DNA of 38,650 nucleotides. Origin: Methanomassiliicoccales archaeon. GTDB lineage: Archaea > Thermoplasmatota > Thermoplasmata > SG8-5. The notes under the pieces were generated by a model. That model was not told the DNA's origin. It did no database searches and was given only the letters and a program-made list of their open reading frames with translations. Made by a program: the position numbers and the translations under genes. Shown piece after piece: positions 8,600 to 20,508 of this stretch. The stretch covers positions 1-38,650 of the forward strand of contig JAUWNU010000007.1 in assembly GCA_030612505.1 (NCBI GenBank), written 5' to 3'. Each line of letters opens with the position of its first letter. Positions within the stretch are counted from its first letter, which is position 1.

Positions 8600-10033
8600 T
8601 TAGTCATCTGGCTTGCGTTTTTTTATCTGGCGTATTGATACGCCTGCCACAACCAGCCCTATGATTATCAACATGGTCCAGAGCATGGTATTATCAGAAC
8701 CGCCATTTGGGCCTGTGCCATTGTCTACTGAATCCTCTGTACAATGCAACATTACCAGATCCCAATCACCATCGGTGGATGTAGTGGTATCTTTGGTCTG
8801 CCAGATAATATACAACTTATCATCAAAAACTATGGCATCCATGCCGCTCGCATAGATTCCGCCATCGTTTCCTGTATCATCGACCTGGGTGAATTCGGTT
8901 ATTTGACTCCATTTATCTCCGTTGTGGAAACTAAGTACCATGTCCCAATCATTCCCGGAACTCGTAACAGGATCATTGGTCTGCCAGATAACGAAAACAC
9001 CTCCTTGATAACTGGCCAATAATGGAAATGTATCGCTCCCGTCATCCTTATGCCCCAGTATATCGGGTGATGTGATTTCCAGGATCCCGCCCCAAGATTC
9101 ACCATCATATATCCTCATGACGATATCATCATCCTTTCCAGTAGATATCGTATCATCCACGGTTTGCCAGAGTACATACAGTTTGCCATCTATCACGTCG
9201 GTATATGGGTGGAGGTCATCATCATTGTCTGATATTGATGTTAGCTCGACTGCAGGATTCCACTGATTGCCGTCAAAGGACCGTGATAATATGTCAAAAT
9301 CAGTGCCATTGCTGACCTTGTCATCCGTGCTCCAGACCAGGTACATAAGGTCATTGAATACCTGGAGCTGTGGTGAGTAATCATCACCCTCATCGCCAAT
9401 CATTGGCTTAGCCACTGAAGACCAGGAGGCCCCTTCATCTGGAAGGGTAGTTCCATCAAAGACCTTCATGACAATGTCAGCGTCCTCACCATCCGATGTG
9501 TTATTGTCCCAGGTCTGCCATGCGACATAGAGCTTCCCCTGATATTCACAAAACTGGGGATGATAGTCATCACCGGAGTCATCCACATCGGTTATGTCTA
9601 TAACGCTGCCCCACCTAATTCCATCATGGCTCCGCATCACAATATCCCAATCAGAGCCGGTGCTGTCTGTCACATCATTGGTTGCCCAGGCAACGTATAA
9701 TTCATTGTTGAACACTATTGAGGTCGGGTTGGTATCTGCACCAGAATTGTCCTGGGATGATATCTCCTCTGTATCTCCCCAGGTTTCCCCATTATAATTA
9801 TTCACAACAATATCTTGGTCTGTTCCGCTGGTGATATCCTCAGAGGAGCTTTGCCAGACCATCCATATCTCATTCCGATACAGGCAGGTACTGGGCATCA
9901 TGTCATCCCCACCAGTATCAATTGTTATTTCGCTTATATCGCTGAGATTTATCTCGGCATATGCAATTCCAGGGATTTGGAATAAAGCAATCAAACACAA
10001 GCACATAATCAACGATATGATCTTTCTATTCAT
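8600..10033 (-). CDS. Membrane-anchored seven-repeat beta-propeller surface protein
   Basis: 477 residues from the ATG at 10033. There is a signal peptide (MNRKIISLIMCLCLIALFQI then PGIAYA), seven tandem repeats of about 54-60 residues, and a C-terminal membrane helix (TMLWTMLIIIGLVVAGV) with a basic cytoplasmic tail. Each repeat carries LY(V/L)xWQTxD, then S-x-G-x-D-x-D-I-V-M and a DGxxW end, the look of a BNR/sialidase-like seven-bladed propeller with Asp-rich turns that may bind calcium. The exposed part should face outside the cell. The start overlaps the upstream gene's stop by 8 bases and GGAGAGTGA precedes it; an ATG at 10060 is less likely. Last gene of the surface operon. Ligand unknown. 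Confidence 0.75.
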   Translation of the reverse strand: MNRKIISLIMCLCLIALFQIPGIAYAEINLSDISEITIDTGGDDMMPSTCLYRNEIWMVWQSSSEDITSGTDQDIVVNNYNGETWGDTEEISSQDNSGADTNPTSIVFNNELYVAWATNDVTDSTGSDWDIVMRSHDGIRWGSVIDITDVDDSGDDYHPQFCEYQGKLYVAWQTWDNNTSDGEDADIVMKVFDGTTLPDEGASWSSVAKPMIGDEGDDYSPQLQVFNDLMYLVWSTDDKVSNGTDFDILSRSFDGNQWNPAVELTSISDNDDDLHPYTDVIDGKLYVLWQTVDDTISTGKDDDIVMRIYDGESWGGILEITSPDILGHKDDGSDTFPLLASYQGGVFVIWQTNDPVTSSGNDWDMVLSFHNGDKWSQITEFTQVDDTGNDGGIYASGMDAIVFDDKLYIIWQTKDTTTSTDGDWDLVMLHCTEDSVDNGTGPNGGSDNTMLWTMLIIIGLVVAGVSIRQIKKRKPDD

Positions 10034-11816
10034 CAATGGACTCACTCTCCTTCTTTTCATTACTGGGACTGTTATTCGAATCTTTTTGTAATCTAATGGT
10101 CAAGACCACAACAATAGTGGCCAAGAAAATAATCAAACCAATCAGGAATGATTCCAAATCTTGAGATCCGGGCTGAGAAACAAAAACTGACCGGCTTATG
10201 GCATTATTGGCAAGTACTCGCTCTGCACCATCTGATTCTAGAACCACCCAAATCTCCTGGGTGCCTGCTGATTCTGCATACCAAATATGAGAACTGGTAT
10301 TGGAACCGCCTGCCATTATGAAAACACTTGAACGAGAGATAAGAGTTCCATTATTGGCTGGGTCTCCCAAGTATATGGATATATTAGCCTGGCAATTTGC
10401 TTTGCCTATATTGTGTGCTGTGACTGATATTTCCACAGCATCACCCACCACTGGATTTGGAGCAAATAACTCGATATCGCTGGACTTTATCTGAAGGTCT
10501 GGCGCATCTCCAAGCACTGTGAATATCGTATTAATGGTATTGTCCATGTTCGAACTAATAACCGAAATATCCAATCTATATTCGCCCCCATTTGATGGGG
10601 TGGTAATCTGAACAGAGAACGCGCCTTCATCATCTGTAATGGTTGTCCAGATATCGGTTGCGGATTCTATAGATACAAAGACATCCCCCTGAACAACCGG
10701 GGACTGGCCATCCAACATGGCCATGCCATTAACCATCATTGCTGCATCTTGTTCATATCCCTGGAAGAAAGGGTCCAAGTGAATATCAATGAAAGAATAG
10801 TTGATAATCAAAGAGTGGTGGCTGGATTTGTTGAGATTTCCATATTGATCGTGCACCGATACTTCGAATTCTATCTGGGTATTGGCTGGATATATGCCAA
10901 TATCTGTTTGATAAAAGCCAGAAGATAGGAGTGTTGCGTTGAGTGATTGTTCTGCCCCGTCATTTACTGTGTAATTGACAAGCACCGCATTTTGCTTGGC
11001 CATGCCATAATTGTCAGTTACATTCACACTGATTGTTATGTTATCAGCAGATGTTGGTTTGATTGGATTAATACTGATATTGTGTATCTGGGGCAATGTA
11101 ATGTCTGCTGCCTCAAATTGTATAGATGCCTGGTCATTGGATATGTTTGAATCATCTGGTGTACAATTTTCAATGACAGCATAGATTATGTGTGGCCCAA
11201 CTGTAGCTGTCCATATCGTAGAAACTATAATGCTTGTATCGGCTGCCAGGGAAATGTTATTTCTGTAAAGCTCAAGACCTTTCAAGGACGGGTCACCATC
11301 ATAGAAAGATATGTTAGCCATTGCCCAGACCTTGCCCTGATTGGTCACATTGCAGGAAATTTCCACCTTGTCCCCCTCATCGGGAGCCGTATCGGATATT
11401 ACAATACCATCGAGTATGGCCATGTCTGGCCGAGGAGCCAATATATCTAGAAATGTATCGTTCCAACCTGTGATTGTGGAGAAAATCGCCGTAACATTGA
11501 CTGTATAATTTCCAGATATTGATGGCGCGGTTATGGAAATACTGTAATGGCCATCTACATCGCCAGTTATGGTGTATTCGTCCAAATAGCCACCAGGATT
11601 GGTCACATTAATGAATATCTCAGGAAACTTCGCTTGTGTTCCGTCATTTATGTTTACCGTGCCTTGTATTTTAACCTGGGAGGCCGGTCCGCAAGTGGAT
11701 GGTAACACATCCAGGGAAACATCCAACTCTCCGGCCGCTCTAACACTAACTGGACATATCAAACATAGGGCAAGTAAAAAAATACTGCCAAATTTGAATA
11801 TGTTGATTCGTCTCAT
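10026..11816 (-). CDS. Membrane-anchored CARDB-type surface protein
   Basis: 596 residues: a signal peptide (IFLLALCLICPVSVRAAG), a long extracellular part of beta-sandwich domains, and a C-terminal helix (LIGLIIFLATIVVVLTI) followed by a charged tail. Two CARDB-like modules are recognisable: about 130-235, starting PDMAILDGIVISDTAPDEGD, and about 440-545, starting PDLQIKSSDIELFAPNPVVGD. Both show the V(T/A)N.GK pattern and end in a SNIS- or LANN-type strand. Between and before them are Ig/CarboxypepD_reg-like segments (GHYSISITAPS and GAFSVQITTPS). Many N-x-S/T sites suggest glycosylation. It is 17 bases after the large surface protein gene and coupled to the propeller gene. No catalytic motif seen. 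Confidence 0.7.
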   Translation of the reverse strand: MRRINIFKFGSIFLLALCLICPVSVRAAGELDVSLDVLPSTCGPASQVKIQGTVNINDGTQAKFPEIFINVTNPGGYLDEYTITGDVDGHYSISITAPSISGNYTVNVTAIFSTITGWNDTFLDILAPRPDMAILDGIVISDTAPDEGDKVEISCNVTNQGKVWAMANISFYDGDPSLKGLELYRNNISLAADTSIIVSTIWTATVGPHIIYAVIENCTPDDSNISNDQASIQFEAADITLPQIHNISINPIKPTSADNITISVNVTDNYGMAKQNAVLVNYTVNDGAEQSLNATLLSSGFYQTDIGIYPANTQIEFEVSVHDQYGNLNKSSHHSLIINYSFIDIHLDPFFQGYEQDAAMMVNGMAMLDGQSPVVQGDVFVSIESATDIWTTITDDEGAFSVQITTPSNGGEYRLDISVISSNMDNTINTIFTVLGDAPDLQIKSSDIELFAPNPVVGDAVEISVTAHNIGKANCQANISIYLGDPANNGTLISRSSVFIMAGGSNTSSHIWYAESAGTQEIWVVLESDGAERVLANNAISRSVFVSQPGSQDLESFLIGLIIFLATIVVVLTIRLQKDSNNSPSNEKKESESIDE

Positions 11817-11833
11817 CTATTAACACACCTACA

Positions 11834-14800
11834 CTAGTTTGTTATTGTCCAGACACAGTCGGAAGTCACCTTTATCCAATAACCATTACCGCAGGACATC
11901 ATATCACTGCCGCCCAGTTCAGAGATATAATAGGCAGCACCACCATCATAGGCCTCGACAGCATCATATGGAATGCCCCATAGGGCATCAGTTACTGTTT
12001 GTTCTGTGAAGCCAGGATAGCCAACAAAGTTCCATCCTGCAAAAAGATTGATATTTGTTAATGAGGGGACTTCCCCCACGGAAATAAGATAGTCACCAGG
12101 AGCATTCACGAAGACCCAGAGGGCCTGTGTATGGTCTATTGTCAGCAGGTCATTAAATGAGGCTGGGTGGGACACAGTATTGCCTTTCCAGGGATCTAGG
12201 GGGTCTGTGGTATCATAGTAACGCGCACGTTCCCAAGTAATGGTCTGAAGAACAGCAGGAAGCGATTCATCTACCATGTTCACAGGTATCGAAATCAGGT
12301 TCCAGCCATCCTGAACTTGCTTCACCACCTTTGCGACCTTCAGCTCATTTGTCTCTTCGGTTCCAACAAGATTAACTGCCCTGACAACATAGAAATAATT
12401 ATTCCAGTCATTGTCTCCGGCACCAGAATCGGTCCAGGTAATGGCTGCTGTTGTGTCCTCCGGGATGGCATAATTCATGGCCGGTGTTAAGCTCCTGTAT
12501 ATTGCATAGTGTGAGATGTCTGGCGAGGGAGATGCGTCCCAAGATAATACAATATTATTTCCACTCAATGATATCTGGAGATTTGAAGGCGGTTCTGGTG
12601 GTGAATTATCTACGTTCACGTTCACAGTTGATGAATATCCTATATTGCCATTATTATCCGTGGCATTGGCATCTATGGTGTGTGAACCATCAGTTTCCAG
12701 GGTAGTATCCCATAGGTACTCCCATCCAAATACGGTATGTGTGCATTGTAATGGGGGGCCCTTATCAATTGAAACATACACAGCCAAGATACCCCCATCA
12801 TCTGCAGAATAAACAATAATGCTGGTGTCGCCAGATATGTCAGAACCCTCGGTGGGCGTGTCGATTATTACCACAGGCGGCGTAATGTCGGTGGGTGTGG
12901 CAATTGCAGTTTTCACAATGCTTGTGTTCTCATTTGATGATTTGTCGATTGCAGTTACTCCAAAATAATATTGAATGTCATTTGTCAGGCCAGCCACAAG
13001 GCACCATGTTGCAGAAGAATCATCTATTGGAGAGCCAAGATGATAGATTGCCAATGTGGTGTCATCGAAATTCGAGGTGTCATAATACACCTTATACCCG
13101 GCAACATCCGGCTCCAGGCACGGCTCCCAGCTCACGTTCACCAATCCACCGATGCCCAGGTCCTCTGCGTACACCGCCGCAATGGCTGAAGGCGGAGAAG
13201 CATCTGCCGGTATGCCGCTGGCCTCTGAAGATTGCAAGCCCTCATTGTCTGCCACATCAAAGGCCGAAACCACATAGTAATAAGTTACACCGTCGGTCAA
13301 GCCAGTATCAACTAAGGAATTGGTCAGCGTGGTTGCCACAAGGACATAGGAAGAGCCGGAAACAAGGCTGCGATAAACATAATATCCTGCAATATCGAAT
13401 TCAGTATTGGCGGTCCATTGAACATTAAGAATATTGCCTTCCGGGGGTGCCGATACAGTTAATCCGGTAACCTGGGCAGGAGGGGTTCTGTCAAGTGTTC
13501 CGTAGATATTAACATCGTCAATCCAGTATCCGATTTCTGTGATTACTTTATCAGAATAGAAATCAAATGTGACTAGAGCCTGGTGGCGCGTGTATCCTGA
13601 AAGGTCTATCTCTGCCATGTACCAGCCATCAGAATAATCACCTGTGAATCCGCCATAATAATCCCAATTGCCGCCGCCGTCAACGGAAATTCCGATGAAA
13701 AGGAAATCATAATCTTGTTCTGCAAACCCGGTGAAAGAAAATTGCAGGGTCGCCTCCTCTGCATATGTCAGGTCAAAGCTGTGTGTAAGATATTCATCCA
13801 TTCCATTACCGTATTCGCTAGTGCCGTCACTGCCGCACCACCAGCTGTGGTCAAAGGAATAATAATCTGTTGTAACAAGATGCCAGTTTGGCTCGGTTGA
13901 ATGGGTGGATGTCCAGCCATTTGTGCCTGACTCCATGTCATCGAAGAAGAATACAGACGCAACCTGGAACTCGTCAACATAGACGCCCTCGCGTGTTGTG
14001 CTGGAGTCACTGGAGAACCATAGACGAATCTGTACATTTGGAAAGCCACATTCCGGGGTCAGGTCCAGGTGGCCAGTATCCCACCATATCCTGGCATAAA
14101 GGTCCGGGTCATAGGCATCATACTGGTATTCGTCCGAGCCGTCATTTAGGAGCATGAGCGTGCGCCACCCAGCACCCCGATTGACTGAAATGCTGAACAC
14201 ATCATAGAAATCTTCGGCATCCATCCAGAACACACAAGCAACATATGCATTGGAATATCCTGTCAGGTCCACTGTCACGTCTGCATAGCTGTCCATGTAA
14301 TTGTCATACATATTGCCAGTGCCGGTTATCTCGATATTATCAATGTACCAGCCTTCCCTGAGAGTCAGACCATCAGAGTGAAAATGAAATAATAGATAAA
14401 CAACCAGATTGTCAAAGGCACTGATGTCCAGTGCGCCGCTGGTCCACCAAATGCTGTGGTATGGGTCTGAATAATCTGATGAGTCATAATCATCGCTCAT
14501 GGAGTCTATGGTTGTCCAGCCAGCATCATTGGGGTCTGCATAGTTTGTTGTAGCCATCTTGACATAAGCATAATCAAATCCATCCTCAATGTCCAGCCAG
14601 TAATGGTACTCGAGTGCGCATCCGGTCTGGCCAGTGAGATCAATCTCTTTCTTCATGTAGGCGTCCATTGAATCATCATAATGCTGGGTTGGATTGGTGT
14701 AATAGACCTCTATCCACCATTCGTCTATGTAGCCAATATCTCCTGCGAAATAGTCCCAGGCCCATAATCCCCATTCCTGGTTGACCAACTCCCCGTTGAA

Positions 14801-15715
14801 ATCTGTGATGCCAGTTCTTGTAATGTCTATATCAGCATCATCTTCCGGATCGTCATCATCTCCATTATCTGTGACCAGGCCATTTCCATCCCAAAGTATA
14901 TTGCTGATGGTGGTAGCCTCATTGCTCAGGTCAATGTAGATATCGCTGACATATGTGTGGGGCAGAAGGAAATGAACATCAATACTCGTCACTATCGAAC
15001 CTGTCGGTGCGCTGTCTATTATTATGGACGTATGACCCCACCCAGCCCCATTATCTGGAATTGCTGCATCTGTGGTATTCTGGCCGCTCTCCATATCTGC
15101 CAGGGAAGCTACGCTTCCAATGGCAGAACAGTAATAGCTATTAGAGGGACTGGCAGGGCTGGAACGGGTTGTACTTCCAGACCAGTAATCTGCGCCATCG
15201 GCTGCGTTATAGTCCCCTACTGTCCAACCATCTCTCTGTTCAGCATACTCGGCGGTGTCGTAGTAAATGGTATGTGAGCCAGTAATGCCGCCGACACCTG
15301 CACAATACAGGCTATTGCTGTCATAGCATGGGCGGTCTGTGGTGGCTGCCCAGTAATCTGCACCATTCGTGGCATCTGCATCGGCAATGGTCCAGCCATC
15401 TGTCCCTGTCTCAAAATCATCATAGAAAATGTAAGATATGCCTGAGCCCAGGATTTGTGGGCCATTGGAGGATTGGGAAGAAATATCTACTGCTCCATGC
15501 CCATGGGAATTTGTCTGGGTGCTTTTGGAGATTATGTCAGCACCTGAAAGAACCTCATGGGGCAAATACCCGATTTCCCTTTCCAGTGAATTTACATCGA
15601 GTGAATTGGAAGATACGGGAACCGAAACGGCTGTTGCCACAACAAGCAAGCAGATGGTCAAGCTCAGCACTCTGTTCATTGCTTGTGCTGCTCTATCTGT
15701 TCGTATCCCCTTCAT
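11834..15715 (-). CDS. Large secreted multidomain protein (P-domain, MAM-like, Fn3)
   Basis: 1293 residues from the ATG at 15715; GGAGG lies 10 bases upstream, while a TTG at 15721 is too close to it. A signal segment (RVLSLTICLLVVATAVSVPV) is followed by two short GWT...GADYW repeats. Next comes a proprotein-convertase P-like domain (about 210-335), then several DDMESGTNGW-type MAM or immune-inhibitor-A-like modules up to about 760. Fn3 domains follow from about 770 (DRTPPAQVTGLTVSA and similar), with a bacterial Ig-like segment after the second. The C terminus holds two GWNLISIP/GWNFVGYP segments common in archaeal secreted proteins. No membrane helix ends it, so it may be released or held by partners. 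No protease site is visible. It follows the caspase-like gene by 27 bases. Confidence 0.75.
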   Translation of the reverse strand: MKGIRTDRAAQAMNRVLSLTICLLVVATAVSVPVSSNSLDVNSLEREIGYLPHEVLSGADIISKSTQTNSHGHGAVDISSQSSNGPQILGSGISYIFYDDFETGTDGWTIADADATNGADYWAATTDRPCYDSNSLYCAGVGGITGSHTIYYDTAEYAEQRDGWTVGDYNAADGADYWSGSTTRSSPASPSNSYYCSAIGSVASLADMESGQNTTDAAIPDNGAGWGHTSIIIDSAPTGSIVTSIDVHFLLPHTYVSDIYIDLSNEATTISNILWDGNGLVTDNGDDDDPEDDADIDITRTGITDFNGELVNQEWGLWAWDYFAGDIGYIDEWWIEVYYTNPTQHYDDSMDAYMKKEIDLTGQTGCALEYHYWLDIEDGFDYAYVKMATTNYADPNDAGWTTIDSMSDDYDSSDYSDPYHSIWWTSGALDISAFDNLVVYLLFHFHSDGLTLREGWYIDNIEITGTGNMYDNYMDSYADVTVDLTGYSNAYVACVFWMDAEDFYDVFSISVNRGAGWRTLMLLNDGSDEYQYDAYDPDLYARIWWDTGHLDLTPECGFPNVQIRLWFSSDSSTTREGVYVDEFQVASVFFFDDMESGTNGWTSTHSTEPNWHLVTTDYYSFDHSWWCGSDGTSEYGNGMDEYLTHSFDLTYAEEATLQFSFTGFAEQDYDFLFIGISVDGGGNWDYYGGFTGDYSDGWYMAEIDLSGYTRHQALVTFDFYSDKVITEIGYWIDDVNIYGTLDRTPPAQVTGLTVSAPPEGNILNVQWTANTEFDIAGYYVYRSLVSGSSYVLVATTLTNSLVDTGLTDGVTYYYVVSAFDVADNEGLQSSEASGIPADASPPSAIAAVYAEDLGIGGLVNVSWEPCLEPDVAGYKVYYDTSNFDDTTLAIYHLGSPIDDSSATWCLVAGLTNDIQYYFGVTAIDKSSNENTSIVKTAIATPTDITPPVVIIDTPTEGSDISGDTSIIVYSADDGGILAVYVSIDKGPPLQCTHTVFGWEYLWDTTLETDGSHTIDANATDNNGNIGYSSTVNVNVDNSPPEPPSNLQISLSGNNIVLSWDASPSPDISHYAIYRSLTPAMNYAIPEDTTAAITWTDSGAGDNDWNNYFYVVRAVNLVGTEETNELKVAKVVKQVQDGWNLISIPVNMVDESLPAVLQTITWERARYYDTTDPLDPWKGNTVSHPASFNDLLTIDHTQALWVFVNAPGDYLISVGEVPSLTNINLFAGWNFVGYPGFTEQTVTDALWGIPYDAVEAYDGGAAYYISELGGSDMMSCGNGYWIKVTSDCVWTITN

Positions 15716-15742
15716 TGTCAATAATCCTCCTTTGAGGAAACC

Positions 15743-18703
15743 TTACAAAGTGAATGTGCCAGGGTAATGGTCTTCCTGCTCTGGGTTGGAATCATAGTGC
15801 TCGGCATGGTACTTGGGTGCCGCAGCACTGAAGGCAGATTCGCAGGACGTATAACCTTGTGATTTCAATGCCCAGTCCAGATACCAGTATGTCCATGCAC
15901 CATTGTTGTAGGACGGCGCATCGTAGCCATACTCGTTCCAGCCGCAGGTCTCTGCAACATAGCGGCCAGATGAGGCACCAGCGGCCACCTCGTCCATTCC
16001 ACCGCTTCTGCAACAATCAAAGAATATGAATACATGGGTGCTGTCCAAGCCTGAAAGGTGAGTTGCCAGTACCGTATCAAGTATGCAGCCATGGCCTGAG
16101 CCATCAGCATTCCAGGCAAAGAACTGTGACGGGTGACCGTCCACTTGACCAGGGGTATTGCTGTAACCCCCCTCTGACTGGAATCCGCCATGGCCTGAGA
16201 AGCATATAGCAACATCATCTCCAGCCCGCTCATTGGGCAATAGCCAGTTATCTATTTCATTGTAGATTGCCGCCTCACTTGCCTGGCTGTCAATCAGGGT
16301 GTGTACCGTGTAACCCTTTCCCTGCAGATAGTTGGTCCAGTCCACTGCATCCTCGTCGCAATACGATAGATCGCTGATGTACTGATAATTTGATATTCCG
16401 ATGACCAGGGCCCACTTGTTGCTGCTTCCGGCCTCCGTACTGGATGCCTGGACACTGTAAGAACCACTGCCACTGTAAGATATGGCCATTATGTGATAGG
16501 TTCCGGCAGGAGGGTTGGTGATGGTACAGGATTCGGTGGATGAACCTGTGTATCCCCGGGAATCATAAGTGGAAGTTGTTGGGGCAGTCCCGAACCTCAC
16601 ATACAGATCAAAATCAGCAGTTGATGGGCCAGACATATCAACTTTCAGACTGGTCTTGCCGGATGGGACGCTGACTGTGAAGTATTCCTTGTCTCCTGAA
16701 GCTGTCAGGCTGCCAGTTCCTGCACTTCCGTCCAAGGTCAATACAGTGGTTCCAGAACCGTCTGAGCTTGTTGTGAACACATTGTCACTGCTGGTGGCGG
16801 TATTACCACTTGCATCGGCAGATTTAACCCTGAAATGATAGGTCTTGGAAGCCAGTAAGTTCGAAAGCGCCACTGAATGGGAGGTTACGCCGTTGGCACC
16901 GGTCAAGGAACTGCCATAACCTGTGGTTGTTCCATATTCTACTATGCTGCTGGCGGGTTCATTGGTGCTCCAGGTTATGGTGGCACTATTGGAGGATATT
17001 GAAGAAACAGAAACACTAGATATCACTGGTGGCGTTACATCCGCCCCACCGGTGATGGTTGCCCTCACATTGTAGTTACCGCTTCCGCTGTAGCAATAGG
17101 TCATGATATAATAGGTGGCCGCTGCGGGGTTGCTCACGGTGCAGGTCTCGTCTGCACTGTTCGTATAACCCCTAGCATCATAGCTTGAGGTTGTCGGCTG
17201 GCTGCCTCTCTTTACATATAAATCATAGTCAGCCCCAGAGCTTGGGCCGTCCATGAATACTACAAGTGAAGAGTATCCTGAGCCAACGGTGACTTGGAAG
17301 TACTTGCTCTGGCCAGCGCTTGAGAATGAGTAGGTGTCGCTGGTCACGCCAAGTGTCAGAATGGTTGTGGTGGTGCCCGAGGATGCTGTTGTGAATGTCC
17401 TGTCAGTGCTTGTTGCGGTATTGCCTGCGATATCTGTACTAACAACCCTGCAATGATATGTGGTTGATGCGCTGAGTCCAGAGAAGGAAACTGAATGGGA
17501 TGTCACTCCGCCGCTGCCAGTTGCCGTAGACCCATAACTGGTTGTTGTACCATAGTTGACTGTGCTGGTACTAGATTCATCGGTTGTCCAGATTATTGTG
17601 GCTCCCGTGTCCGTTATGGAAGACGCACCAATTTCTGAAATTACTGGAGGCGTTGTGTCCCCTGCTGATTGGGTTGTAAATGTATAATCTGAACTTGTTC
17701 CAACATTGCTGCTGGCATCGGTGGATTTAACTCTGAAATGATAGGTTGTAGAGCCACTGAGGCCGGACAAAGAGACCGTGTGGAAGGTTACGCCATTGCT
17801 GCCTGTGGCTGTGGACCCATAGCCTGTGGTTGTGCCATATTCTACCAAGCTGCTGCTGGCCTCATTGGTGGTCCAAGTAATAGTTATACTATCACTGGTC
17901 AAAGAGGATCCGGATACCGCAGAGATGCTTGGTGGTGTTGTATCGCCAACTATTTCAGCATTGGCCACAATATCGTAACTGCCACTGCCGCTGTATGAAT
18001 GGGCCATTATGTAATAAGTTCCAGATGATGGATTGCTTATCTGGCAAGTCTCATCTGAAGAAGAAGTATAACCTTTCACATCATAGCTTGACGTGGTTGG
18101 AGGTGTGCCATATTTAACATACAAATCAAAATCGGCACCTGTCGGGCCATTGTATGTCTGAATGGTCAAAGACGAATAACCGACACCCAGATCAAGTGTA
18201 AAATGTTCCATATCTCCTGTGCCTGTCAAAACGCCGGAAGATGGAACCGCAAGGGAAAGATCTCCAAGAGAGTCGCCGCCTGTTTTGGTGGCCTTGACCT
18301 CATATGAACCGCTGCCGCTGTAGGATATGACCATTATGTAATATGTCCCGCTTGCCGGGTCTGTCAGAGGGCAGGCCTCATTTGAGGATGATGTGTAACC
18401 CTTGACATCATAGCTAGAAGTGGTTGGCTGTGAGCCTCTTTTCACGTACAAATCAAAATCCGAACCACCCGGGCCATTCTGGGTTATAACATCCAATGCT
18501 GTGCATCCGCTGGGTATGGTTATGTAATAATAATCCTTGGCACCGGTTCCGCTAAGGGAGCCGGCAACTGGCACGCCTGATGTTAATTCGGCATTTGCGC
18601 CATCGGCCAATACGCTTATTGGGGCTGCCAGGAACCCAAGTGCTATCACCATACAAATTAAAATTGTAAAATTATTAAATTTTGAATCGCTGTTCTTCCA
18701 CAT
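15743..18703 (-). CDS. Secreted caspase-like peptidase (C14) with PPC and Fn3 domains
   Basis: 986 residues from the ATG at 18703, where GGAGG stands 7 bases upstream. A signal segment (FTILICMVIALGFLAAPISV) precedes four pre-peptidase C-terminal (PPC) domains and three Fn3 domains in the order PPC-PPC-Fn3-Fn3-PPC-Fn3-PPC. A C-terminal C14 p20 domain starts near residue 762 (KWALVIGISNYQY). The catalytic pair is visible: H838 in FSGHGG and C898 in FDCCRSGG. Metacaspase-like enzymes usually cut after Arg or Lys; specificity here is not readable. PPC domains often mark secreted proteases. There is no membrane anchor, so it should act outside the cell. First gene of the four-gene surface operon, with an operator-like region upstream. 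Confidence 0.85.
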   Translation of the reverse strand: MWKNSDSKFNNFTILICMVIALGFLAAPISVLADGANAELTSGVPVAGSLSGTGAKDYYYITIPSGCTALDVITQNGPGGSDFDLYVKRGSQPTTSSYDVKGYTSSSNEACPLTDPASGTYYIMVISYSGSGSYEVKATKTGGDSLGDLSLAVPSSGVLTGTGDMEHFTLDLGVGYSSLTIQTYNGPTGADFDLYVKYGTPPTTSSYDVKGYTSSSDETCQISNPSSGTYYIMAHSYSGSGSYDIVANAEIVGDTTPPSISAVSGSSLTSDSITITWTTNEASSSLVEYGTTTGYGSTATGSNGVTFHTVSLSGLSGSTTYHFRVKSTDASSNVGTSSDYTFTTQSAGDTTPPVISEIGASSITDTGATIIWTTDESSTSTVNYGTTTSYGSTATGSGGVTSHSVSFSGLSASTTYHCRVVSTDIAGNTATSTDRTFTTASSGTTTTILTLGVTSDTYSFSSAGQSKYFQVTVGSGYSSLVVFMDGPSSGADYDLYVKRGSQPTTSSYDARGYTNSADETCTVSNPAAATYYIMTYCYSGSGNYNVRATITGGADVTPPVISSVSVSSISSNSATITWSTNEPASSIVEYGTTTGYGSSLTGANGVTSHSVALSNLLASKTYHFRVKSADASGNTATSSDNVFTTSSDGSGTTVLTLDGSAGTGSLTASGDKEYFTVSVPSGKTSLKVDMSGPSTADFDLYVRFGTAPTTSTYDSRGYTGSSTESCTITNPPAGTYHIMAISYSGSGSYSVQASSTEAGSSNKWALVIGISNYQYISDLSYCDEDAVDWTNYLQGKGYTVHTLIDSQASEAAIYNEIDNWLLPNERAGDDVAICFSGHGGFQSEGGYSNTPGQVDGHPSQFFAWNADGSGHGCILDTVLATHLSGLDSTHVFIFFDCCRSGGMDEVAAGASSGRYVAETCGWNEYGYDAPSYNNGAWTYWYLDWALKSQGYTSCESAFSAAAPKYHAEHYDSNPEQEDHYPGTFTL

Positions 18704-18785: not shown

Positions 18786-18816
18786 ACTCAATACTCAATA
18801 AAACATATAAAATGGA

Positions 18817-18837
18817 GGCCAGCGAAAATGGCTGGCC
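18817..18837 (-). terminator. GGCCAGC hairpin after the 546-residue membrane protein gene
   Basis: GGCCAGC (18817-18823) pairs with GCTGGCC (18831-18837) around seven bases. On the minus strand TCCATTTTATATG follows. It lies 31 bases after the stop codon at 18868 and separates that gene from the caspase operon. The same core and flanks recur at 20605-20626. Confidence 0.55.
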
Positions 18838-18867
18838 CTATTTTCCATTTATTTGATATGATGAGTG

Positions 18868-20508
18868 CTAATCCCATCTTACCATAATGTTCCGACCATT
18901 GATTACCTGGTATTCAACTGTTATAGAATCTCCAATTTCAATGAGGAAAGGCTGGGTTTCCGGCCCTGAGTATATCACAGTTCCATTGACTTCCAAATAC
19001 CATTCAGTCTCTCCGTCAACAACATATGAATGGATGTCTGTAACATTGCCGCTGATGGTTAGAACAGTTTCATTGATAATTTCAATGGGTGTAAAGCCCG
19101 TGAGAACCTCTTCGAGAGTATCGCCCATTGTAACCTCCCCGTCCAGCGCCCGCACTAGAGCAACTTTCTGAAGAATATTTGTTCCAGAATGAATTGGCGT
19201 AAACCATGTTTCATTACCATCAATAATCAGGAATATTGGCTGGGTAGCATACCACCCCACAAAATTGGTAACCTTTGCTGTGGCAGCCTCCATGGCCGCA
19301 TAGCCGTTCAGAAGGCCATTAACCCTGTAGAAATTTGATTCCCCGGTCCTGGTATTCATGAGAATGTATCCTACCATACTTTGATCTGAGCTGGCAGGGG
19401 ATGTGAAATCAGTAAACCAGAATGTTTGATTGTTTTCACCAACTATCATGTAAACATCGGTACCGAAACCGCCGCCGTCCTGAGAGTATGCATTGTTCTT
19501 GGCTGTGGGCTGCATCACATCCTCTTCTGTGAATACAGTGTTCCAGAACCCATTCTTGTAGCTGCCCCACCATTCACAGTAGCTTTCTGCCAGTTCCTCT
19601 GGAAAGGCATTGTCTATCCAGCCTGGTTGCTCTCCAAAGACATATGATGTCATTGATTTGTTCAGTGGAGATATCACAAGAACATTCTTTGCCACGGCAC
19701 CGGTATAGGAAACAGTGGGCTGGCTCAGGGTAACTATGACCCATGGAGAGCCGTTCTCATCAATTTCAAAGGCCCAGTGCTGGTCATAGTTTGGGTATTG
19801 ATTGTAAACTATTCTGTGCATATACTGGCTGAAATACTCTCCTTCATAGGAATAATCCACTGCATAATTATCCACCATGATAGCTTCCTTAGCAGGATCC
19901 TCGCCATCAACCAGAATGTATCCTGGCGTCACATCAAAATTCCATTGTTTAAAGAAGTCCCTGTGAATCAGCGGGCAGACCCAGGTCAATTTCCCATGAT
20001 AAAGAATAATCTCAAGCTCGCCTATCATGACCCGATTGCCCAGTTCACCAACTACTTTATCAGCTTTCCATTTGGCATACTCATAATTAACCTGGCGAAC
20101 ATGTGTGGTATCTATTTCCACTGGCTTGCCCTCTACTTCTATAATGTCAGTAAGGCCGTGAAGGTCCTTTGTCATTAGGAATGGTGAAATAGCCATTATC
20201 AGTAGAACAACAATAAGCAATATTCCTGGTAACATTTTCTTTGATTTTTCCATATTGAATGAGATATATACAAACCAGAAACCAATGGTGAATATGACCA
20301 TAAAGAGTATTATGAGATTAATGCCAATTGTTTTTACCATTAAAAAATAATTGATTATGCCCAGGGCTATACTCATTATCAATGCTATGTATATTGCTCT
20401 CTTCAGAGCATTTTTCCAATCATTTCTATCATGTTCAATAATGAACAGGTTCATGACCTGACCAGCAAGTGCGGCTATCAGAACTATAAGCGGTATTATG
20501 AGGTTCAT
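18868..20508 (-). CDS. Unknown membrane protein with large extracellular domain
   Basis: 546 residues, not assigned to a family. The N-terminal 120 residues hold four hydrophobic helices (about 2-23, 38-58, 62-85, 91-112). The remainder is soluble and rich in aromatic residues, with segments such as YILVDGEDPAKEAIMVDN, QPGWIDNAFPEELAESYCEW and YATQPIFLIIDGNETWF. The last 70 residues look like a small beta-barrel (SGNVTDIHSYVVDGETEWYL). Phrases such as GYILMNTRTGESNFYRVNG suggest a domain also found in bacterial membrane proteins, but I cannot name it. It is preceded by GGAGAGAG near the ATG and has its own hairpin terminator, so it is probably a separate transcription unit. Confidence 0.7.
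   Translation of the reverse strand: MNLIIPLIVLIAALAGQVMNLFIIEHDRNDWKNALKRAIYIALIMSIALGIINYFLMVKTIGINLIILFMVIFTIGFWFVYISFNMEKSKKMLPGILLIVVLLIMAISPFLMTKDLHGLTDIIEVEGKPVEIDTTHVRQVNYEYAKWKADKVVGELGNRVMIGELEIILYHGKLTWVCPLIHRDFFKQWNFDVTPGYILVDGEDPAKEAIMVDNYAVDYSYEGEYFSQYMHRIVYNQYPNYDQHWAFEIDENGSPWVIVTLSQPTVSYTGAVAKNVLVISPLNKSMTSYVFGEQPGWIDNAFPEELAESYCEWWGSYKNGFWNTVFTEEDVMQPTAKNNAYSQDGGGFGTDVYMIVGENNQTFWFTDFTSPASSDQSMVGYILMNTRTGESNFYRVNGLLNGYAAMEAATAKVTNFVGWYATQPIFLIIDGNETWFTPIHSGTNILQKVALVRALDGEVTMGDTLEEVLTGFTPIEIINETVLTISGNVTDIHSYVVDGETEWYLEVNGTVIYSGPETQPFLIEIGDSITVEYQVINGRNIMVRWD

Follow-up and report, generated by a model that had tools for sequence, protein, structure and literature searches.

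Prokaryotic relatives of the caspases are mostly treated as cell-death or regulatory enzymes. What, then, is the role of such an enzyme in an archaeon of the Thermoplasmatota, in which a C14 peptidase with a signal peptide is encoded in line with three further surface proteins? The question is raised by a stretch of 38,650 nucleotides (contig JAUWNU010000007.1 of the GenBank assembly GCA_030612505.1, a Methanomassiliicoccales archaeon), in the following called the window, in which the four genes, here named A to D, lie between positions 8600 and 18703.

Secretion itself, which the first-pass annotation had set against the mostly cytoplasmic C14 peptidases, is not the novelty. Extracellular prokaryotic C14 proteins have been reported before, 30 of them being counted in one survey (PMC3501461), and in MBG-D archaea C14B peptidases are found among the expressed extracellular and intracellular peptidases, together with families C11 and C25 (PMC6461988). 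The new part is the dedicated pairing of a C14 peptidase with an anchored propeller, a unit of which no description was found in the literature searched.

Results

A four-gene unit on the minus strand

The run of four genes was confirmed in the window and comprises the following features:

15743..18703, minus strand: gene A, C14 (metacaspase-like) peptidase, 986 aa (ATG at 18703; Pfam)
11834..15721, minus strand: gene B, MAM/Fn3/Ig surface protein, 1295 aa (TTG start) or 1293 aa (ATG at 15715)
11837..12316, minus strand: C-terminal GWN/GYW domain of B, about 160 aa (profile search of the genome)
10026..11816, minus strand: gene C, CARDB/Ig-like protein, 596 aa (Pfam; signal peptide; transmembrane helix 556-574)
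8600..10060, minus strand: gene D, anchored propeller, 486 aa (first ATG, 10060) or 477 aa (ATG at 10033)
18816..18838, minus strand: G+C-rich hairpin with a T-rich stretch after it (consensus scan only)

The spacing claimed initially was reproduced with particular start codons: 27 bases separate B from A when B begins at the ATG at 15715, C begins 17 bases past the end of B, and C and D overlap by 8 bases when D begins at the ATG at 10033. All four proteins open with a signal-peptide-like helix. On sequence grounds, A-B-C-D is a real operon. Its probable upstream limit is the hairpin at 18816-18838, between A and the gene at 18868-20508; hairpin-type sites in the region are about as numerous as expected by chance, and this one has the longest G+C-rich stem.

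The gene directly upstream of A (18868-20508) encodes a membrane protein of 546 aa with four N-terminal helices and a large remaining domain, for which searches of Pfam and NCBIfam gave no match. Near the start of the window, the open reading frame at 122-1336, starting with MKTIFVGLDVSKD, is a candidate IS110-type transposase.

Gene A encodes a secreted C14 peptidase

The product of gene A leads from a signal peptide over four PPC and three Fn3 domains to a Peptidase_C14 domain at the C terminus (Pfam), the match to PF00656 reaching 52.5 bits (E 7e-14) against a curated cut-off of 21.4. This domain covers residues from about 755 to 986 (window 15746-16441) and contains the His/Cys dyad as H838 within SGHGG and C898 within DCCRSG, so that the domains and dyad residues attributed to A in advance were all recovered. 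The dyad is unchanged in all 21 aligned C14 domains. A search of PDB sequences named GSU0716 (3bij) and the yeast metacaspase Yca1 (4f6o) as the nearest solved relatives; neither this search nor Pfam matched A to family C25, and A belongs to C14. In the predicted structure, the C14 domain is confident apart from the loop 841-860. Foldseek matches of full-length A are dominated by the Fn3 domains and are uninformative on C14; the PPC part matches the collagen-binding domains s3as3b of clostridial ColG (5iku), with a low global TM. Apart from the signal-peptide-like N-terminal helix, no membrane anchor is present in A.

The S1 pocket of the trypanosomal metacaspase TbMCA2 is formed by Cys92, Asp95, Ser156 and Asp211 (PMC4357240). 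C782, D785, S836 and D896 of A take these positions, an equivalence drawn from motifs and an alignment with the yeast metacaspase rather than from a superposition. D785 and D896 are invariant in the 21 aligned domains, while residue 836 is Ser in 19 and Ala in two, and residue 782 is Cys in 16 and Ala in five. As these residues match a metacaspase S1 pocket, A is predicted to cleave after Arg or Lys, like other metacaspases.

Could A be an effector of cell death or antagonism, acting in fratricide or in defence, a role put forward for some prokaryotic metacaspases? The “caspase” profile of PADLOC matches its C14 domain (E 3e-16), and a fratricide role has been proposed for extracellular metacaspases (PMC3501461). 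We nevertheless consider such a function highly improbable: the profile recognizes a generic C14 domain, the unit is devoid of a sensor, NACHT or immunity gene, and a profile of D found no relative in viral contigs. With the generic PADLOC profile as the only match, assignment to a defence system was rejected. A viral or mobile origin was rejected as well, given that no D relatives were found in the viral contigs and that only distant bacterial caspases came up when plasmids were searched with the C14 domain.

Genes B, C and D encode the accompanying surface proteins

B contains three InhA-like MAM domains, three fn3 domains and one Big_7 domain (Pfam). From its ATG it has the 1293 residues given in the first-pass annotation, and the MAM and Fn3 domains named there were recovered; the P-domain was not, being unsupported by Pfam even at E 0.1. 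B of the window has no transmembrane helix, and its orthologs in the relatives G003 and G007 carry one at the C terminus. Residues from about 200 to 340 (window 14700-15125) differ from their counterparts in G003, G007 and G022, which look like another MAM-type domain; a domain swap inside B is possible. At the end of the B ortholog of G022 (L053:4896-8933), a partial Amidase_3 domain is succeeded by an Amidase_6 domain, each at E about 1e-23. These are domains of the peptidoglycan-hydrolase type, here on an archaeal surface protein; Amidase_6 proteins are present in 8 of 41 relatives searched.

The earlier description of C as an anchored CARDB protein agrees with its two CARDB domains (Pfam) and its C-terminal membrane helix at residues 556-574. 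For D, no model of Pfam or NCBIfam matches. Its AlphaFold2 model (pLDDT 80.6, pTM 0.78) consists of seven three-stranded repeats and ends in a membrane helix at residues 457-481, which bears out the earlier description as an anchored seven-repeat propeller. The best Foldseek matches are the sialidase/GH propellers NanA and BACINT_00347, with TM 0.41-0.54 on the query. Identity to these matches is 10-14%, and D differs from them in being seven-bladed, in its C-terminal membrane anchor and in the RIP motif and Asp-boxes, which were sought in D and not found. D as a sialidase was rejected on this account.

The unit recurs in related genomes

When whole genomes were searched for A, full-length orthologs were detected in G010 (74%), G022 (60%), G007 (56%) and G003 (56%). 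The set of A, B, C and D recurs in six genomes from three families, the genome of the window (G000) included, with the records UBA147, Euryarchaeota S2_100, CSMAG_1135 and CSMAG_1396 among them. Since the set is found in five genomes besides that of the window, the grouping is not due to chance. Among the A orthologs with readable flanks, none was met without the other three genes. The expectation of one common four-gene order in the relatives held for the shared set but not for a fixed order: the genes are arranged as A-B-C-D in G000, G010 and G012 and as C-D-A-B in G003 and G007, on one strand, and, truncated at a contig end, in G022.

The MAG contigs are broken at several of the loci compared. 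In G010, A runs into the start of B at the end of contig C15, and B-C-D opens contig C34. In G012, contig C314 carries B-C-D in the order of the window and A is known only from its last 15 codons, the sequence just upstream of B encoding SNPEEEDHYPGAFSF and a stop, which is the C terminus of A. In G022, D-A-B extends up to the contig end, and C would fall beyond it.

The A protein of the window is nearer to that of G010, a member of another family, than to those of G003 and G007 from the same family. Unlike A, FtsZ and the thermosome follow the taxonomic order, with identities to the window of 81-82% and 85-88%, respectively, for G003/G007 and of 76% and 83% for G010. B, C and D split as A does, and so does the gene order. 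As its simplest reading, this suggests that the unit was transferred horizontally as a block or that ancient paralogs were differentially lost. Gene trees and order at the loci L035, L120, L121, L037, L038 and L036, compared with the window, conflict with taxonomy.

C14 genes pair with the propeller gene in two arrangements

In a search of 250 genomes of the class with a D profile, in which matches above 140 bits were taken as strong, 13 strong matches were obtained, representing 13 loci in eight genomes. Every one of these 13 loci adjoins a gene for an unanchored secreted C14 peptidase. Six are of the operon type described above (G000, G003, G007, G010, G012, G022) and seven of a giant type (G000, G001, G003, G005, G007, G010, G022). 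Matches under the threshold were repeat proteins, at about 105 bits or lower, and the remaining (second) halves of two D genes interrupted by contig ends: one in G005 (C7/C138), both halves of which contain ISKVLTGNQ, and one in G010 (C14/C57), with the halves at profile positions 16-362 and 364-459.

The giant type comprises secreted C14 paralogs of 1143-1902 aa, where complete, which contain Big_5 repeats and have their C14 domain at the C terminus. D lies directly downstream on the opposite strand (tail-to-tail), the gene ends overlapping slightly or lying up to about 120 bases apart; being convergent, the two genes are not part of one transcript. Because B and C are missing where this second C14 paralog stands beside its D homolog, the specific link is that between peptidase and propeller. 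Trees separate operon and giant types cleanly, with support of 99/99 and 98/92 for C14 and 100/99 for D, and as both trees split alike, the partners have been kept together.

These patterns bear on the possibility that the products, adhesins and a peptidase, act independently and share no complex, their genes being co-transcribed for ease of expression. Such an arrangement would agree with the fact that the domains of B, including the C-terminal one, are common among surface proteins of these genomes. We hold it to be quite unlikely, as the same members are retained across two gene orders, no full-strength D was found apart from a C14 gene, and D also accompanies a second C14 paralog, differently arranged.

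The distribution of membrane anchors is complementary. The C14 proteins of the operon and giant types have a signal-peptide-like helix only and D as neighbour, and each of the 11 D proteins checked combines a signal peptide with a C-terminal transmembrane helix. A third type of C14 protein consists of an N-terminal zinc ribbon, a membrane helix and then PPC, PKD and C14 domains; all ten of these proteins have an internal transmembrane helix of their own, and no D was found near their genes at the loci read. This complementarity is the main argument for D as a membrane tether, although the contrast involves few clades and perhaps two or three evolutionary events.

Short secreted C14 proteins of about 290 aa, which occur in more distant relatives (G026, G090, G171, G111), have neither an anchor nor a true D neighbour. 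They break the rule that an unanchored C14 protein always has a D, and a dock is thus not required for every secreted C14 peptidase. In G129 (L129:5740-7656), a very distant anchored repeat-propeller, scoring 29 bits with the D profile, is encoded divergently to a short secreted C14 gene; a repeat-propeller of this kind was not seen at the matching locus of G111.

As an alternative to a tether, D, and perhaps C, could act as a surface inhibitor or shield, which binds A and either protects surface proteins of the producing cell or holds the enzyme inactive until a cue arrives. Between the window and G003/G007, C and D are at 24-26% and A at 56%; a divergence so much faster than that of A would be expected of a partner under changing pressure, and the constant one-to-one pairing of D with C14, which in the giant type has D on a convergent transcript of its own, would fit a regulator. 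On the other hand, D has no recognised inhibitor fold or motif, and its fast divergence fits a loosely constrained anchor too. Overall, an inhibitor appears rather unlikely to us.

The C-terminal domain of B does not follow the pair

The C-terminal domain of B, with the pattern GWNLIS...GWNxVGYP...GYWIxV..DxVW, is shared by about 30 large secreted proteins that this genome encodes (L144-L173) and forms the exact C terminus at 25 of 30 inspected loci. In B it is matched by no Pfam model at E 0.1, and a profile search located it in 68 of the 250 genomes of the class. In Thermoplasmatota it may serve in sorting, in anchoring or in binding to the S-layer. The giant C14 proteins contain it internally; a B-C14 fusion as a Rosetta-type link was dropped, the domain being too common to count.

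In the type IX system of Bacteroidetes, surface exposure of the C25 sortase PorU needs PorZ (PMC5121618). As there, a clan CD cysteine peptidase meets a seven-fold propeller at the surface, here with seven repeats and an anchor in D. The C14-propeller pair might accordingly mature or sort surface proteins, trimming or attaching those of its own cell, and the roughly 30 secreted proteins which share one C-terminal domain, B included, would be candidate clients. The distributions do not agree with this: genomes lacking any C14 match (G004, G006, G011, G025 and others) encode 14 or more GWN/GYW domains each, and in G022 the domain was not found at E 1e-10 despite two C14-D pairs. Sorting by way of this domain was rejected, its profile across the 250 genomes failing to track the pair. 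Moreover, PorU belongs to C25 and A to C14, PorZ is made up of two seven-fold propellers plus a CTD, and A and D show no co-distribution with a C-terminal cargo domain. Altogether we regard a sorting enzyme as very unlikely. An archaeal machine for surface processing or attachment that converged on PorU-PorZ and has substrates other than the GWN/GYW proteins would be slightly less probable still.

Discussion

Returning to the tether or regulator, the likeliest role of D, judging from gene neighbourhoods and predicted anchors, is to dock or regulate an extracellular peptidase of metacaspase type at the surface, and A and D probably act as a cell-surface pair. A would be a C14B-type cysteine endopeptidase, exported without an anchor of its own and predicted to cut after Arg or Lys, and D, fixed in the membrane by its C-terminal helix, would hold and/or regulate A at the surface. 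B and C may join this complex as accessory surface proteins, with a role in adhesion or in capturing substrate; C carries a membrane anchor, as does B in some relatives. The adhesion, receptor and maturation roles suggested for the set in the first-pass annotation are inferences. Such a complex would most likely serve to degrade extracellular protein in the vicinity of the cell, possibly for nutrition; self-processing would be another putative role of the peptidase. To the reading as a whole, that is, an extracellular endopeptidase docked or regulated by D, with B and C as accessories and protein breakdown as its purpose, we assign about an even chance. Its weak step is protein degradation, because in sediment archaea active catabolism of protein was not predicted by the genes for extracellular peptidases (PMC9123169).

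A shares with the orthocaspases (MEROPS C14B) the caspase fold, the SGHGG and DxCxSGG dyad motifs and the S1-pocket residues. It differs in being archaeal and secreted, in the position of the C14 domain at the C terminus behind PPC/Fn3 arms, and in its constant propeller partner. The extracellular cysteine peptidases reported from MBG-D and from Thermoplasmata of sediments (families C11 clostripain, C25 gingipain and C14B) likewise belong to clan CD, and many have signal peptides (PMC6461988), but these reports give the peptidases singly.

In uncultured Thermoplasmatota, the pair presents a relative of the caspases that is clearly built for the cell exterior, with an anchored propeller beside it in two paralogous arrangements. 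It is a possible parallel to PorU-PorZ. The pairing offers a concrete interaction of two proteins and a clue as to how unanchored archaeal peptidases may be retained at the cell surface.
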